Virus record (IMG/VR): IMGVR_UViG_3300021962_000030
Span: 62,001-126,000 of that record
Origin: a virus
DNA length: 64,000 nucleotides
Direction: 5' to 3' (one strand)
Shown here: piece by piece, positions 6,815 through 62,034 of the stretch
Layout: every line of letters starts with the position of its first letter
Position numbering within the stretch: position 1 is the stretch's first letter
Made by a program: the position numbers and the translations under genes
Notes under the pieces: generated by a model
Told to the model about the DNA's origin: nothing
The model's input: the letters and a program-made list of their open reading frames with translations, nothing else
Database searches by the model: none

Positions 6815-9307
6815 TTAGTATGTTTTGCCAGCAATTCTTACTGCCATTCCGTCAGCACTACCAGAGACTCTAAGTGAATCATCAATTGCCAGATATTTAG
6901 GTTTTGATATAACATCAACTACAGAATTTTTTGGAACCGTGAGTGATTTGCACAAGTATCCCAATCTAGTCCCACCCCTAAAGATTGATACAGTAACATC
7001 AACATCACTTGAGAGATTATAATTTGTTGCAGAAATTGTCTCTACAACAGTTTGACTAGATGCAGTATATATGGATTGATCTGTGGAAGTGATGGTTGCT
7101 CCAGTGCCAATATATGCCGTGTCTGTTTTTTCTGTCCACACTATAAACGCATCCATACCACTATTGACACCATTCGCAGTAGATGCAACACCATCCATTG
7201 CTTGAAGTCTTAATGTATCTGATGGATTAAATACAACTGGATTTTCTAGAAGTTCTAATGCTCCCTGATATGGAATAACTACTCTTTGTGCGATAGGGAC
7301 ATTTGTAAATCCACTAAAATCGTGCCTAGAGACAACATATAGGTCTTTTGTGTCAATATTTGCCAACTGTATTGACTCTACGATATATCGTTTTCCTGCC
7401 GTTGCTGGGAATGTATATGCTACTCCTGGTCCAATAAAAATGTTATTATCTTCTGTCTGATTTGCACCAATTCCAGATGTTACACTATGATAAAGTGATG
7501 TAGTAATTCCGGTATTAAATGTTCCCCCATCACCTCCACCACCAGATGCAGATCCAGTGACAGTAACAATACCGGCAACGGGTGTGGAAACTGTGAGATT
7601 GTCGCCAAAGTCAATTGTGGTTACAGAAGTTCCTACTATGGATTGATTGTCCCATACCACTATAGATCCACCAGCCCCTGTGGCATCGGCGTCATTGACC
7701 CACACAGATCCATTATACTTTAGAACTTGTCCGGTTGTTGGTGATGAGAGTGTTACGTCGGTCAGGTCATTTAATGCTGAGGCACCACCACCACCTCCGC
7801 CAGATCCACCGGTATATTCGATTGATTCGATTGTGAATGTTGAATAATCTAAAAGAACAACAGTTGTATCTGTTCCAGCATATCTTACGGATCTGAGTTC
7901 GAGAGTGTCATTTGCTGCCAAATTCATGACAAGCTGCTTCGATGCAGTATCTCCGCCGTTGGCGGCGCTTCTGTTATACATGTATGATCTGGACGCAGTA
8001 ACCTCGCCAGATCCATTCAATCTCAGATAAACATAAGTTCCACTTCTTGCACTTCCACTTGTAACATCAGTCGAAACGCTATAATGGATTAAATATCTAC
8101 CCGCATTTATAACAGTAACCACTCCAGTTGCACTTACTGTAAAATCTCCAGTTCCGGAACTTTGTCCAGTAGTATCCAAATCTACAGTAACTTCCGTTGT
8201 ATTTGTTTGTGATCCGGCACCGTATGTTGTGATATGTTTATGTGTAGAAACTCCAGCAGATCCTCCTTGTGCTGCCCAAGAAACGCCAGCACCAGTAGAT
8301 GTTAGAACATAAGTATCTGATCCAAGTGAATTGTTGATGTCATAAAGACCAGCATCTATATAAATGTTTCCACCAAAAGTAGAAACTCCAGTAACATTCA
8401 GAGTTGATGTGGTTGTCTGACCAGATACGAGAACTCCAGCAATTGATGTTTCAAATTTCTTGACATTATCATAATAAAGATCAACCGGACCATCTGAGGT
8501 CATTACTGCCTTTGTTTCTGTTGTAGCAGAATTTGTGAATACAATATTTGCATCCCCAGCAAGATAAAGATCCCCACCTCCTTGATCTACGATAATGGAA
8601 TTGAATCCATTATGGTAGAAAACCATGTCCGCACTATCACCAAATCTAAATTGTGCATTATCTGGAAATTCTAGTGAATTTTCCGAAGCATCCCATAGAA
8701 GTGTATATGTTGCGCCAGTAAATGATACGTCACCATAGAAGGTTGTTGCGCCAGAAACATTAACCTGTTTGGCAAAAAGGTCGGATCCAGTTACGGTAGT
8801 TAATCCGGCAAAAGTAGAAACTCCAGATATATTCAGATTTGTGTCATTAATCCAAGCAGATCCGGTATACCTCAAGATATTATCTTGAGTTGCGGATGTA
8901 ATAGTAACATCGGTGAGGTCATTTAATGCTGATGCACCACCAGATGCTGAGGTCCAACTTACACCAGATCCAGTAGATGTTAGAACTTGTGTGTCAGTTC
9001 CAGCAGAATTGTTGAAATCGTAAAGTGCTCCACGAAATCGCGAGGTGCCATTTACGTCCAACAATCGGGTCGCGGCAGTCGTTCCTACACCAACATTTCC
9101 AACAGTAAAGGTAATGTCATATGCACTAGTACCAAATCCAATATCCCATGGATTAACGGCAATGACCGATGTGATTCCTGCAGTTTTCTCTATGAAAACT
9201 TTTCCATCTGCACTATTGATAGCAAATTCTCCTGGTAAGACATCTGCTATAGTTGGTATTTTCCCAGATACTGAGGATCTTTTTACCCGAATAATTGGAT
9301 CTGCCAT
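6815..9307 (-). CDS. Tail fibre-like structural protein with C1q-like and repeat modules, 830 aa
   Basis: The N-terminus IIRVKRSSVSGKIPTIADVL then PGEFAINSADGKVFIE matches the start of many phage fibre/hyaluronidase-type proteins (IxxRRG...LxxGExxxxxxxxxLyiG). Repeats of the type GVSTFGG and two copies of an ALNDLTDVT module followed by a Y-x-GS-x-W-x-ND segment (about residues 130 and 512) form the shaft. Residues about 360-495 resemble a C1q/TNF-like jelly roll (FTVSATGVVTVINAGRYLI, then YVYLRLNGSG). The C-terminal 230 residues form another beta-rich domain, plausibly the receptor-binding end. Late-promoter-like boxes lie upstream. Confidence 0.8.
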   Translation of the reverse strand: MADPIIRVKRSSVSGKIPTIADVLPGEFAINSADGKVFIEKTAGITSVIAVNPWDIGFGTSAYDITFTVGNVGVGTTAATRLLDVNGTSRFRGALYDFNNSAGTDTQVLTSTGSGVSWTSASGGASALNDLTDVTITSATQDNILRYTGSAWINDTNLNISGVSTFAGLTTVTGSDLFAKQVNVSGATTFYGDVSFTGATYTLLWDASENSLEFPDNAQFRFGDSADMVFYHNGFNSIIVDQGGGDLYLAGDANIVFTNSATTETKAVMTSDGPVDLYYDNVKKFETSIAGVLVSGQTTTSTLNVTGVSTFGGNIYIDAGLYDINNSLGSDTYVLTSTGAGVSWAAQGGSAGVSTHKHITTYGAGSQTNTTEVTVDLDTTGQSSGTGDFTVSATGVVTVINAGRYLIHYSVSTDVTSGSARSGTYVYLRLNGSGEVTASRSYMYNRSAANGGDTASKQLVMNLAANDTLELRSVRYAGTDTTVVLLDYSTFTIESIEYTGGSGGGGGGASALNDLTDVTLSSPTTGQVLKYNGSVWVNDADATGAGGSIVVWDNQSIVGTSVTTIDFGDNLTVSTPVAGIVTVTGSASGGGGDGGTFNTGITTSLYHSVTSGIGANQTEDNNIFIGPGVAYTFPATAGKRYIVESIQLANIDTKDLYVVSRHDFSGFTNVPIAQRVVIPYQGALELLENPVVFNPSDTLRLQAMDGVASTANGVNSGMDAFIVWTEKTDTAYIGTGATITSTDQSIYTASSQTVVETISATNYNLSSDVDVTVSIFRGGTRLGYLCKSLTVPKNSVVDVISKPKYLAIDDSLRVSGSADGMAVRIAGKTY

Positions 9308-48424: not shown

Positions 48425-48558
48425 GATTTCAAAAGAATTAATTGTGTGGTGGCAATCCGTCTGCCTCCACGTTCACACCATAGCACTCCCAGGACCACGT
48501 GACGTGCTGCAGATACGAATCTTAACCGCAGCATCATGCATCATGTTACACGTGTATA

Positions 48559-48705
48559 CTACCAGAGATCATCTGTGTTGAGTTCTTTTACATCTACCTC
48601 TAGATGTTCACCACCTTCAAGATTTAAAATAGTATCCCAATCTAAATCTTGAGGATCAAAATCATCCATAACTTCTAGATCTAGAGTAATTCTGTACCTA
48701 TGCAT
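48559..48705 (-). CDS. Small acidic protein, 48 aa
   Basis: From ATG 48703-48705: MHRYRITLDLEVMDDFDPQD then LDWDTILNLEGGEHLEVDV. The RITLDLEV..DFDPxxLDW..ILxLEGGExx pattern recurs in marine cyanophage small proteins. A 53-aa version starting at 48718-48720 is possible. The stop TAG is at 48559-48561. Function unknown. It is the last minus-strand gene before the repeat region. Confidence 0.75.
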   Translation of the reverse strand: MHRYRITLDLEVMDDFDPQDLDWDTILNLEGGEHLEVDVKELNTDDLW

Positions 48706-48720
48706 CTGTGCGTATACCAT

Positions 48721-49305
48721 AAGAACCATCTGAACTCTATGTGTATTATACCGCGCTTAGATTAATAAGGCAAGCGTTGAATGTATATATGCAGCATGTG
48801 TAAATCTAGTGTACTTATGTGAAGTATGTACATGAATCTAGATGTGTATATGCAGCATACATGAATCTAGATGTATATGTGTATGATGTGAATCTAGTTG
48901 CATATGTGCAGCAGATCTAGTGCAATCTAGTTGTGTATATGATGTGCTGTAATCTAGTTGCAGAAATCTAGTTGCATATGTGCAGCAGATCTAGTTGTGT
49001 TTCAGCGGACCCGTGGCATTTCTGCAGCGTCCCTGGGGCAAATTTTCCGCGTCCCGTGGTTGACAAACTGCGCGTCCGGTGCTAAGCTGTCCAAGATCAC
49101 AAGACCTGGGGGCATTTAAATGATCATAAGTGTATTAAAGATCTAGTTACATGATGTATAGATGATTTAATACATGATGATGATTAATCTAGTTGTGTAT
49201 ATGATGATTAATCTAGTACATGAATCTAGTTGTGTATATGATGATGAATCTAGTTACATCTAGTTGTATAATACATGATGATTAATCTAGTTGTGTATAC
49301 ATTGT
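48721..49305. repeat. Gene-free region with 16 ATCTAG iterons flanking a GC-rich island
   Basis: In 585 bp no credible gene is seen on either strand. ATCTAG occurs 16 times, always in the same orientation, between 48804 and 49290 (starts 48804, 48836, 48865, 48892, 48915, 48925, 48952, 48966, 48989, 49141, 49187, 49211, 49224, 49248, 49258, 49285). Fewer than one is expected by chance. Longer forms share AATCTAGTTGTGTATATGAT. A GC-rich island at about 49000-49110 interrupts the array and carries three GCGTCC copies about 22 bp apart and a sigma70-like promoter. An origin, recombination hotspot, protein-binding iteron array or ncRNA locus are the candidates. Confidence 0.7.
49060..49088 (+). 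promoter_or_regulatory. Sigma70-like promoter in the GC-rich island
   Basis: TTGACA (49060-49065), a 17-bp spacer, then TAAGCT (49083-49088) on the plus strand. It has a perfect -35 and ideal spacing in an otherwise promoter-poor stretch. No gene lies within 400 bp downstream; the transcript would run through the second half of the iterons towards the GIY-YIG gene. Confidence 0.5.
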
Positions 49306-49392
49306 TTAAAGAGATAATAAGATCAATATAAGTATCGTACCCATCCATATACCCATTAAAGCAACAGTTAATTGAAACATAATACTATCCAT
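49306..49392 (-). CDS. Transmembrane microprotein, 28 aa
   Basis: Complete frame MDSIMFQLTVALMGIWMGTI then LILILLSL: one hydrophobic helix with almost no soluble part. The start at 49390-49392 follows an AGGAG and a TATAAT box. Such short frames are weak evidence alone, but the promoter and SD upstream make it plausible. Confidence 0.5.
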   Translation of the reverse strand: MDSIMFQLTVALMGIWMGTILILILLSL

Positions 49393-49412
49393 ATCTAATG
49401 GTTTATACTCCT

Positions 49413-49418
49413 ATTATA
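49413..49418 (-). promoter_or_regulatory. -10 box (TATAAT) upstream of the 28-aa gene
   Basis: The minus strand reads GTGCTATAATAGGAG; TATAAT occupies 49413-49418, followed by AGGAG. A late-like AATAAATA lies about 19 bp further upstream. It would drive the microprotein gene away from the plus-strand endonuclease gene. Confidence 0.45.
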
Positions 49419-49494
49419 GCACACTTAAACCTTTTATTTATTCCTCTAAAACATATATATTTTTACGTTTAACACAAACATCATATTATTCATT

Positions 49495-50301
49495 ATGACA
49501 AATACGGGCACAATATACCTCATTCTCAATCGTGTCAATGGACATAAGTATGTGGGTCAAACTAGGCAACAATTGAACACCAGATGGAAGGCACATCTGA
49601 CTGAAGCACGTTCTTATCCTACTCGTCCTCTCTACTATGCAATTAACAAATATGGTGCAGATAAGTTTACCATTAAGGTATTAGAAGAATGTTCGGTAGA
49701 TAAGTTAAATGAAAGAGAAGTGTATTGGATTTCTAAACTCAATACCTTTAAAAGTGGTGTCGATTATAATGCAACTGCAGGTGGTGATTTCTTTGAACAT
49801 ACAGAGGCTACTAAACAAAAGATCTCTGAAGGAATGAGAAAGGTAGAGCGTTCGGATGAATGGATACAGAACATGTCTACCTCATTAAAGGAAAAGGCAA
49901 AGAAAGAACCTTGGGGGTTTTTGAATGCAAAGAATAGAGCAGATGGTAAACATACACGTCGTAGAGTTAAAGGTGTATGTGTCACCACTGGAAAAGAGAG
50001 AATCTTTGAAAGTATGACTGAAGCAGCAAGACAGGTGAATGGAAAGAGTGGTAATATCTGTGCTGCGATCAAGAACAATTGGATGGCATATGGTTACAGA
50101 TGGGAAAAGATTGATACACGTCCCAGTAAGTTACAATGCTATGGTGTGAATAAGCATACTGGTGAACAAACAGTCGTCTTTCCCAGTATTAAAGCTGCAT
50201 GTCGTTATATGGGTGGAGATCATGATTCTGGTATTCGCAAAGCATTAAAAGCACCAGGAGTGTCCACATGGTATGGATACTACTGGTTCTTTGTGGCATA
50301 G
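49495..50301 (+). CDS. GIY-YIG homing endonuclease with NUMOD modules, 268 aa
   Basis: The only clear plus-strand gene. Residues 4-90 form the GIY-YIG nuclease: GTIYLILNRVNGHKYVGQTR, the conserved R28-like helix and E/N residues in DKLNEREVYWISKLNTF. Residues about 100-118 (HTEATKQKISEGMRK) are a NUMOD3 DNA-binding motif. Two NUMOD1-like units follow (ERIFESMTEAARQVNGKSGN and TVVFPSIKAACRYMGGDHDS). This is a free-standing homing endonuclease of the phage seg/mob type that promotes its own spread. It converges with the minus-strand gene at 50280, overlapping by 22 bp. An insertion next to the iteron region is inferred. Confidence 0.88.
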   Translation: MTNTGTIYLILNRVNGHKYVGQTRQQLNTRWKAHLTEARSYPTRPLYYAINKYGADKFTIKVLEECSVDKLNEREVYWISKLNTFKSGVDYNATAGGDFFEHTEATKQKISEGMRKVERSDEWIQNMSTSLKEKAKKEPWGFLNAKNRADGKHTRRRVKGVCVTTGKERIFESMTEAARQVNGKSGNICAAIKNNWMAYGYRWEKIDTRPSKLQCYGVNKHTGEQTVVFPSIKAACRYMGGDHDSGIRKALKAPGVSTWYGYYWFFVA

Positions 50302-54206: not shown

Positions 54207-55193
54207 CTACACACCCATAGCGTCCAGAAGGGGTGAATGTTCTACCTCTGCCACATCAATCTGCAGGTTTTCTATTGACTTCTCAAACAACTTCTTGCCT
54301 TCTTTGTTAAGATCGAATAAAACGTAATTTCTGCCGGTCAGAAGGGCACTCCTGCCCACCGTCCCAGACCCAGCGCAAGGATCCAGAACAATAGAATCCT
54401 CATCGCTAAACATCCTCAGAATACGATTCAGTAGAGCAACAGGTTTCTGTGTGGCATAATCCAGTTTCTCAACACCCTGTATCTGCTTAATGTCTGACCA
54501 CACATCTTTGACTGGAATTCCATCCATCTCATCAAGATACTTCTTGACCCTAGGAATACCAGTATTGGATGAGTATTCAAGGCGATTGTCATCATGAAGC
54601 ATCTGCATTCTCTCCTTTGATACATGCCACTGGAGATCATGTCCATTCCATTTATATCTCAGGTTGGGTCTGGATACAACGTTTGGTTGACGATTTACCA
54701 GGGCAGATGTGTGATACTTCTTCTTGCGATATGGACAAATCTTTGCCTTTCGAACTGTCTCATCATCATACTCTTTATGCTCTGGATGATAGATGGACTC
54801 GGCACCCTTTTGATAGACTATGATCGTATCATGATTGCGCTGCAGTTGTTTCTTTGACTTGTGATTGCCGCCAGAGACCCATACAATCTCATTCTTAAAT
54901 CTCTTCTCACCAAACACATCATCAAGAACAATACGAATATGATGTGAGATCTTTGGTTCAACATGCACAACAATATTACCACGATCTGTGAGAATACGAT
55001 GACACTCCTGTAGAAGTGGGCGCATCAACAAATCGCGGTAATCTGCACTTGATTTGAACCTATCATCAAAATGATAGAAGTCCCTACCGGTACAATATGG
55101 TGGATCAATGTAAACAAGATCTACAGTATTCGCTTCAACTTTCTGCAGCAAATCTCTACTGTCACCGATGTTGTACTCGTTTAAGATCTTCAT
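54207..55193 (-). CDS. Beta-class DNA methyltransferase (N6-A or N4-C), 328 aa
   Basis: The motif order is that of beta-class amino-methyltransferases: motif IV VDLVYIDPPYCTGRDFYHFD (DPPY at residues 30-33) near the N-terminus, a central recognition region (HDTIIVYQKGAESIYHPEHK), QKPVALLNRILRMFS (motif X-like), then the AdoMet loop SIVLDPCAGSGTVGRSALLT near residue 275 and a DLN motif. The start ATG at 55191-55193 is preferred. It overlaps the upstream putative restriction gene by 32 bp. Whether it methylates A-N6 or C-N4 cannot be told from DPPY alone. Confidence 0.88.
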   Translation of the reverse strand: MKILNEYNIGDSRDLLQKVEANTVDLVYIDPPYCTGRDFYHFDDRFKSSADYRDLLMRPLLQECHRILTDRGNIVVHVEPKISHHIRIVLDDVFGEKRFKNEIVWVSGGNHKSKKQLQRNHDTIIVYQKGAESIYHPEHKEYDDETVRKAKICPYRKKKYHTSALVNRQPNVVSRPNLRYKWNGHDLQWHVSKERMQMLHDDNRLEYSSNTGIPRVKKYLDEMDGIPVKDVWSDIKQIQGVEKLDYATQKPVALLNRILRMFSDEDSIVLDPCAGSGTVGRSALLTGRNYVLFDLNKEGKKLFEKSIENLQIDVAEVEHSPLLDAMGV

Positions 55194-55707
55194 AGATAAG
55201 AACCTCTTTCGCACGTCCTGTATACTTCTTACGAACTGCTGCTGGCACAGAACCAACACAGTATCCTGGCATATTCTTGTCTTCTAACTCATAACTGGGA
55301 ATAGCAAGATACTCCCAATCAGAGATGTCCTCATAACCATTTGGTATGATGAACAGTATAACATCAAATGAATTGATTGCATACCTCACCTGACCATTCT
55401 TTGCTCCCTGAGTAGCATTCTTACCCGTGGTCCTTCGGGTCTGTTCCATGTGAAGGGAATTGCCTCCACGATACTTCACTTGAATGCGAAGATTGTTGGT
55501 AGATAGACGATCATACTTCTCCTGCTGACCATCAGCATCATTAGGAGATGGTTTTGTTTGAATTCCACACTCCTCACGCAACCACTGGGGTGCGATAATC
55601 CTTTCCGTTGGAAATGCAAGAAACTTACCAATCTCTCTGGTGTCACCTTCGGTGATGAGTTCCTGAAACCCAAGGGCAACAATTTCTGAAAGTGATGATA
55701 CTGACAT
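55162..55707 (-). CDS. Putative restriction endonuclease partner of the methyltransferase, 181 aa
   Basis: A 181-residue protein with an acidic D57/D59-G stretch (KPSPNDADGQQEKYDRLSTN) followed by LRIQVKYRGGNSLHMEQTRR (Q76-V-K78), which fits a PD-(D/E)XK-like core with Q in place of the acidic residue. AINSFDVILFIIPNGYED then WEYLAIPSYEL is the core strand pattern of many type II restriction enzymes. It lies immediately upstream of, and overlaps, the methyltransferase in one transcript, the classic layout of a type II R-M system. Nuclease identity is inferred from motif and context; it could instead be an inactive or unrelated protein. Confidence 0.6.
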   Translation of the reverse strand: MSVSSLSEIVALGFQELITEGDTREIGKFLAFPTERIIAPQWLREECGIQTKPSPNDADGQQEKYDRLSTNNLRIQVKYRGGNSLHMEQTRRTTGKNATQGAKNGQVRYAINSFDVILFIIPNGYEDISDWEYLAIPSYELEDKNMPGYCVGSVPAAVRKKYTGRAKEVLIYEDLKRVQHR

Positions 55708-61891: not shown

Positions 61892-62034
61892 CTTATACAA
61901 ATTTTAACATTTTTTGCGCCATTTTCCTTGACGTAACTCTCCCACCGAATGGCATCTATAAGTTCAAAGAAGGTCGCTGATTGCTCAGAATACCCCTTTT
62001 TCTTTGGTTTCGTGTACATAACAACGTATCGCAT
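61888..62034 (-). CDS. Small basic protein, 48 aa
   Basis: Complete frame MRYVVMYTKPKKKGYSEQSA then TFFELIDAIRWESYVKENGA and KNVKICIR. The 'YvVMYTkPKKKGYSEQSATFfeLeDAi.WE' pattern is familiar from cyanophages. It is translationally coupled (TGATG) to the 25-residue microprotein upstream. Confidence 0.78.
   Translation of the reverse strand: MRYVVMYTKPKKKGYSEQSATFFELIDAIRWESYVKENGAKNVKICIR

Follow-up and report, generated by a model that had tools for sequence, protein, structure and literature searches.

The locus considered here poses the question of what is served by a single hexamer, ATCTAG, that recurs sixteen times around a GC-rich island in a viral genome; an initial annotation had offered a replication or recombination origin, a protein-binding array or a noncoding RNA locus as candidates. 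The window, i.e., the whole stretch of DNA that was analysed, comprises 64,000 nucleotides (positions 62,001 to 126,000) of a 154-kb IMG/VR virus contig (IMGVR_UViG_3300021962_000030). The nearest records are Synechococcus myoviruses, and the virus encodes a plastoquinol terminal oxidase. T4-like cyanophages rank with the most common viruses that infect photosynthetic organisms in the ocean, and the start of their replication appears to be untested. A single theta origin has been predicted for Syn9 (PMC2984593); beyond this prediction, no report of a cyanomyovirus origin was found in the open literature searched. The element described below is a defined site of ~250-700 bp in the named isolates P-SSM2, S-SM2, S-PM2 and Bellamy, which makes the question testable.

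The ATCTAG array and its gene neighbourhood

The sixteen ATCTAG copies lie on the plus strand between 48804 and 49290 (487 bp). The claim that fewer than one would be expected was confirmed, as 2000 dinucleotide shuffles of 48721-49305 gave an expectation of 0.30 and a maximum of 4, and no other 585-nt stretch of the 154-kb contig was found to hold 16 copies of any 6-mer. A TGTTGT-rich stretch at 153.6-153.8 kb of genome G000 has 13 copies per 585 nt. The single orientation claimed for the repeats holds for all 16 on the plus strand, except that two of them are ATCTAGAT and can hence be read on the minus strand too. The array consists of two blocks flanking the GC-rich stretch: nine copies upstream (48804-48994, plus strand), found on the same strand and in the same place in loci L002-L005, L450, L465, L506 and others, and seven copies downstream (49141-49290, plus strand), at the site where relatives have DnaA boxes. 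Inside the blocks the spacing is uneven (10-46 bp) and the unit length variable; three exact copies of the unit AATCTAGTTGTGTATATGATG were found (48924, 49186 and 49223), and extra ATCTAG copies are present slightly to the left of the array (48600-48684). The array is G-skewed on the transcript strand, ranking in the top 0.3% of genome windows, so that R-loops would be expected to be favoured.

The region had been described as gene-free and as lying at a switch from minus- to plus-strand genes, and both descriptions stood in part. There is no ORF of at least 60 aa from 48425 to 49494, but this cut-off overlooked a conserved 53-aa gene at 48559-48720 on the minus strand (phrog_12516, function unassigned), which is divergent from the element. 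A predicted sigma70-type promoter, TTGCCT-17-TATAAT (48745-48773, minus strand), serves this leftward gene, and its equivalent is readable in the sequences of relatives. As for the switch, it amounts to one plus-strand gene, a GIY-YIG homing endonuclease gene adjoining the element (49495-50301), and minus-strand genes begin again from 50280. The GIY-YIG gene is probably a neighbour that stands outside the mechanism. By sequence, GIY-YIG genes are also found directly downstream of the element in L005 (from 9670), L443, L124 and L125. A DNA methyltransferase gene (N6_N4_Mtase) is located at 54207-55259 of the window, 5 kb from the array.

The promoter element in related phages

The three GCGTCC copies that had been placed about 22 bp apart in the GC-rich island were found at 49027, 49049 and 49072, with spacings of 22 and 23. 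The island was rejected as a separate feature, since relatives show it to belong, as the upstream half, to a conserved promoter of the sigma70 type. In the window, the GC-rich upstream part (49005-49059, plus strand) contains the first two copies, and the third is inside the spacer of the predicted promoter, TTGACA-17-TAAGCT (49060-49088, plus strand). The -10 of this copy is weak, with TAAGCT matching at three of six positions, and the promoter was absent from the list produced by the promoter scan. Next comes AAGATCACAAGACCTGGGGGCATTTAAATGATCATAAGT (49093-49137, plus strand), the conserved 5' part of the predicted transcript. Four viral contigs retrieved with the 21-mer unit have the same array in the same place; in these, the GC-rich stretch leads into a sigma70-type promoter and then into AAGATCAC at the expected transcript start, and the same order was observed around the corresponding small gene on the left in named isolates.

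The pattern TTGAC-N16-20-TANNNT-NNN-CGC-NN-AGATCAC was searched in the viral collection and matched at least 120 viral stretches. Among the 120 matches listed, about 119 represent one cyanomyovirus element (the exception being L120), as judged by eye from the flanking sequence. A set of 103 non-redundant loci, isolates included, was analysed; all of this support comes from related phages, so that the locus counts are not independent. The -35 is TTGACA in 82 of the 103 loci and 89 of them have a spacer of 17. The element is single-copy in G000, S-SM2 and SynMITS9220M01; it was not found in S-RSM4, and S-CAM7 gave only a doubtful candidate. Upstream of it, TATTTATAA(G) is present in 44/103 loci (~970-fold enriched). 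Read on the minus strand, this is the T4-type late promoter TATAAATA, which probably serves the leftward small gene.

Downstream of the promoter, A+T content reaches its maximum after 100-150 nt, the best 40-mer having a median position of +113 and 87.5% A+T. TTTTTTAA was found in 53/103 loci, against 7.5% of control windows, and tandem AT-rich repeats like TATATTTTTTAATACATTTTTAAT matched a strict pattern at 21 of 94 loci and nowhere in 1.38 million control strand-bases. Taken as a whole, the element is a predicted promoter followed by a mostly noncoding leader of ~100 nt and an AT-rich block near +113. In the window, the most AT-rich stretch after the promoter, a candidate unwinding block, is at 49433-49494 (best 40-mer 85% A+T), more than 300 nt from the promoter compared with the family median given above.

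An unbiased test of the interval 0 to +250 returned TTTTCCACA as the top 9-mer, with 80 occurrences observed against 0.09 expected (~900-fold), and it is present in the leader of 52 of the 103 loci. In the oriC regions of cyanobacteria, Synechococcus elongatus among them, this sequence serves as the DnaA box (PMC4674748). On the forward strand, TTWTCCACA reaches 6.4/kb in the first 100 nt and falls to near zero past 400 nt. The boxes are co-oriented with the promoter, lie mostly within the first 200 nt and are spaced by 21 or 42 bp in 25 of 36 tallied cases; in the six relatives with both features under the strict pattern, the AT repeat lies a median of 43 bp beyond the last box. Whole genomes show DnaA-box clusters at the element in S-SM2, S-SKS1 and S-BM3 and near it in P-TIM68 and S-PM2. 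In Syn9 and DSL-LC03, clusters were found at the equivalent place upstream of gp6, and no promoter match was found at these two clusters. The DSL-LC03 cluster (OR003938, 80123-80579) has seven boxes in a gene-free gap of ~600 bp, which also holds two copies of AATCTAGTT and an AT-rich block.

The window's element has no DnaA box, and 46 of 97 loci have none even when one mismatch is allowed. The proposition that the boxes are essential was thus rejected; with half of the loci box-free, DnaA is not a universal requirement. No DnaA gene was found in the five phages examined by a search that worked in control genomes, and any DnaA would hence come from the host. Two further ideas about the boxes were also discarded: a 21-bp phased pair is not diagnostic, as the promoter was present at 1 of 134 such pairs in viral contigs, and the phasing is not specific to cyanobacteria, as genome matches include Firmicutes and others. 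In 16 of the 46 box-free loci (e.g., L002 at 7053-7120, L042, L052, L066 and L132) the leader contains ATTCTCAA, often with TTGAGAAT as its inverted partner; ATTCTCAA is possibly a third kind of initiator box. The leader of L107 has four 21-bp GATCTAG-containing units after the promoter, in the place taken by DnaA boxes in relatives. A natural comparison is available between lineages that have boxes and those that lack them. The boxes would couple phage replication to a protein of the host cell cycle, an unexpected link for a T4-like phage.

Conservation of the repeats in relatives, which had been proposed as a check, was borne out, as many contigs, along with the isolates P-SSM2 and S-BM3, have both array and promoter. 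An upstream array in which a 6-mer is repeated at least six times was found in 12/103 loci, against 1.8% of control windows. Starting from ATCTAG arrays of at least six copies, a same-strand promoter was found downstream in 15 of 24 loci by the pattern, and array and promoter were also recognised by inspection in L005 and S-BM3. P-SSM2 has a mixed ATCTAG/ATCTCG array and S-SKS1 an ATCTCGT array. ATCTAG or ATCTCG arrays beside the element are confined to a minority of lineages, including P-SSM2 and S-BM3; on this distribution, the array is read as a lineage-specific addition to the conserved element and not as the conserved element itself. Pairs of ATCTAGTTG were rejected as a marker, being mostly scattered, and only arrays of at least six copies follow the promoter. 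L522 was rejected as a relative of the array; near 7037 on its minus strand is a long, unrelated 12-bp minisatellite, ATCTAGTTGAGA, in a virus that is apparently unrelated too.

Position, proposed mechanism and rival readings

Fourteen genomes could be placed for both the element and gp6 (G000, S-SM2, Bellamy, SynMITS9220M01, S-SCSM1, S-SCSM2R, Sf-FS3, S-CAM9, S-SKS1, S-SRM01, P-SSM2, P-TIM68, S-PM2 and S-BM3, the distance in the last being counted across the record ends). In all of these, the element lies upstream of gp6, at a distance of 2.7-10.8 kb, with its promoter directed away from gp6; in P-SSM2 it is at 65958 on the minus strand, in S-SM2 at about 58.1 kb and in S-PM2 at about 19.3 kb, and in the window the distance is 8.2 kb. 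GC skew, another check that had been suggested, was inconsistent, with a signal that was near the element in G000, lay 11 kb from it in S-SM2 and was absent in SynMITS9220M01, and was not counted as support.

The element's conservation, the order of its parts, its single copy in three genomes, its position and direction with respect to gp6 and the enrichment of DnaA boxes were observed directly. They point, with moderate confidence, to a replication origin in which a T4-like transcript-primed core would be combined with exchangeable initiator sites, either DnaA boxes or iterons. An origin is thus the best supported of the candidates in the initial annotation, though mainly by way of the GC-rich island being a conserved promoter, the AT-rich block and the DnaA boxes of relatives. 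ATCTAG itself is likely to be a protein-binding array within this putative origin, and its stated role is held with less confidence than the origin reading. The window's copy is atypical in its weak -10, its lack of a DnaA box and its distant AT-rich stretch.

The mechanism proposed here, from transcription, R-loop formation and priming to the binding of DnaA or of an iteron protein and to activity as an origin, is modelled on the order and place of the conserved parts. Host RNA polymerase would start at the 49060-49088 promoter, and a short, mostly noncoding transcript would run away from gp6 to the AT-rich block, where the duplex would open and the 3' end of the RNA would prime the first leading strand. 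Boxes around the promoter would recruit an initiator protein, likely host DnaA in the roughly half of relatives that have boxes; in the window's lineage, the ATCTAG iterons are the putative initiator sites. The bound DnaA or iteron-binding protein would help in duplex opening or helicase loading. A wider picture, plausible and tentative rather than probable, is that many T4-like cyanophages have a single oriC-like origin at the position of T4 oriE, borrowing host DnaA and fused to a transcript-primed core of the T4 type, and that in related lineages DnaA boxes gave way to different initiator sites, the window's ATCTAG iterons being an example.

Other readings of the locus have to be weighed against the replication origin. 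The array might belong to a transcription control region in which it would bind a phage or host regulator and tune early transcription from divergent early promoters, the DnaA boxes being operators and no replication starting there. Divergent promoters are indeed present on both sides of the array, the window's array lying between the two, and the rightward promoter precedes a sense gene in the window, L002, S-CAM9, S-BM3 and S-PRM1. In eight isolates, however, the rightward promoter has no annotated sense gene and its predicted transcript faces only opposite-strand genes; the annotation of the isolates was preferred here, as a greedy ORF caller reported spurious first genes on the plus strand downstream (e.g., in S-SM2). 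Since DnaA boxes downstream of the promoter and beside the AT-rich block follow an origin-like order, and the position agrees with that of T4 oriE, a pure control region is considered unlikely.

The lack of a sense gene in many isolates would also fit a small regulatory RNA whose transcription would begin at the conserved promoter and which would contain the repeats or be flanked by them; the promoter is strong and conserved, as is the 5' end, AAGATCACAAGACCT. Against this, Rfam and tRNA scans gave no match, and no consensus structure was obtained on the 103 aligned leaders, a weak test on a very diverse set; the structured-RNA form of the noncoding RNA candidate was left unsupported. Beyond ~+25 the leader varies freely except for the DnaA boxes and the AT-rich block, and the alternation of A and T at box position 3 fits DnaA degeneracy, all of which leaves this explanation distinctly improbable. 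Least credible, and in our estimate very improbable, is a partition, packaging or recombination-site array bound by a phage protein, its adjacency to the promoter being a coincidence of the gene-free gap. The ATCTAG repeats are dense, directional and lineage-specific, as such an array might be, and repeats build up in many gene-free gaps; nevertheless, in most loci an array of at least six copies accompanies the promoter, invariably on its strand, and the scan of neighbouring proteins revealed no partition gene.

Comparison with known origins

The window shares with iteron plasmid origins a promoter and an AT-rich stretch with directional repeats next to them, but the repeat spacing is uneven here and the array is missing in most relatives; no Rep gene was recognised among the neighbouring proteins scanned. 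The likeness to cyanobacterial oriC is found in about half of the relatives, where TTTTCCACA boxes stand beside AT-rich repeats. Unlike cyanobacterial oriC, the element usually has one to three boxes, and the several boxes of a DnaA-dependent oriC are replaced by none in the window; a strong promoter, moreover, belongs to the core of the element.

In T4, oriF consists of a promoter and an unwinding element (PMC3016281). Both oriF and oriG are R-loop origins, whereas the cyanophage promoter is of the host sigma70 type and an R-loop is only proposed. Their arrangement of a promoter with a close AT-rich element is seen across the family (median +113), with the AT-rich stretch of the window itself more than 300 nt away. 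The T4 sources consulted mention neither DnaA boxes nor a conserved AT-rich block, unlike what is observed at the cyanophage element. As for the MotA-dependent middle promoter of oriF and oriG, a MotA domain search gave no match, and its control likewise gave none.

T4 oriE needs an early promoter and has iterons (PMC3016281). The family's promoter is sigma70-like, with the weak -10 in the window, and a search of G000, run without a positive control, gave no match for a RepEB homologue. Direct repeats are present at both oriE and the window's element, those next to oriE falling within gene 5 and recurring regularly every 24 nt and the cyanophage arrays being noncoding and irregular; evenly spaced 12-nt iterons of the oriE type were not seen, the window's spacing being 10-46 bp. 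The GIY-YIG gene segC is located between oriE and gp6, whereas the window's GIY-YIG gene is on the far side of the element. The oriE primer RNA is complementary to gene 5, and the element's predicted transcript is likewise antisense to its neighbours in eight isolates. Finally, oriE lies 1.7 kb upstream of gp6 and acts in the minus direction, and the cyanophage element shares both the location upstream of gp6 and the polarity.
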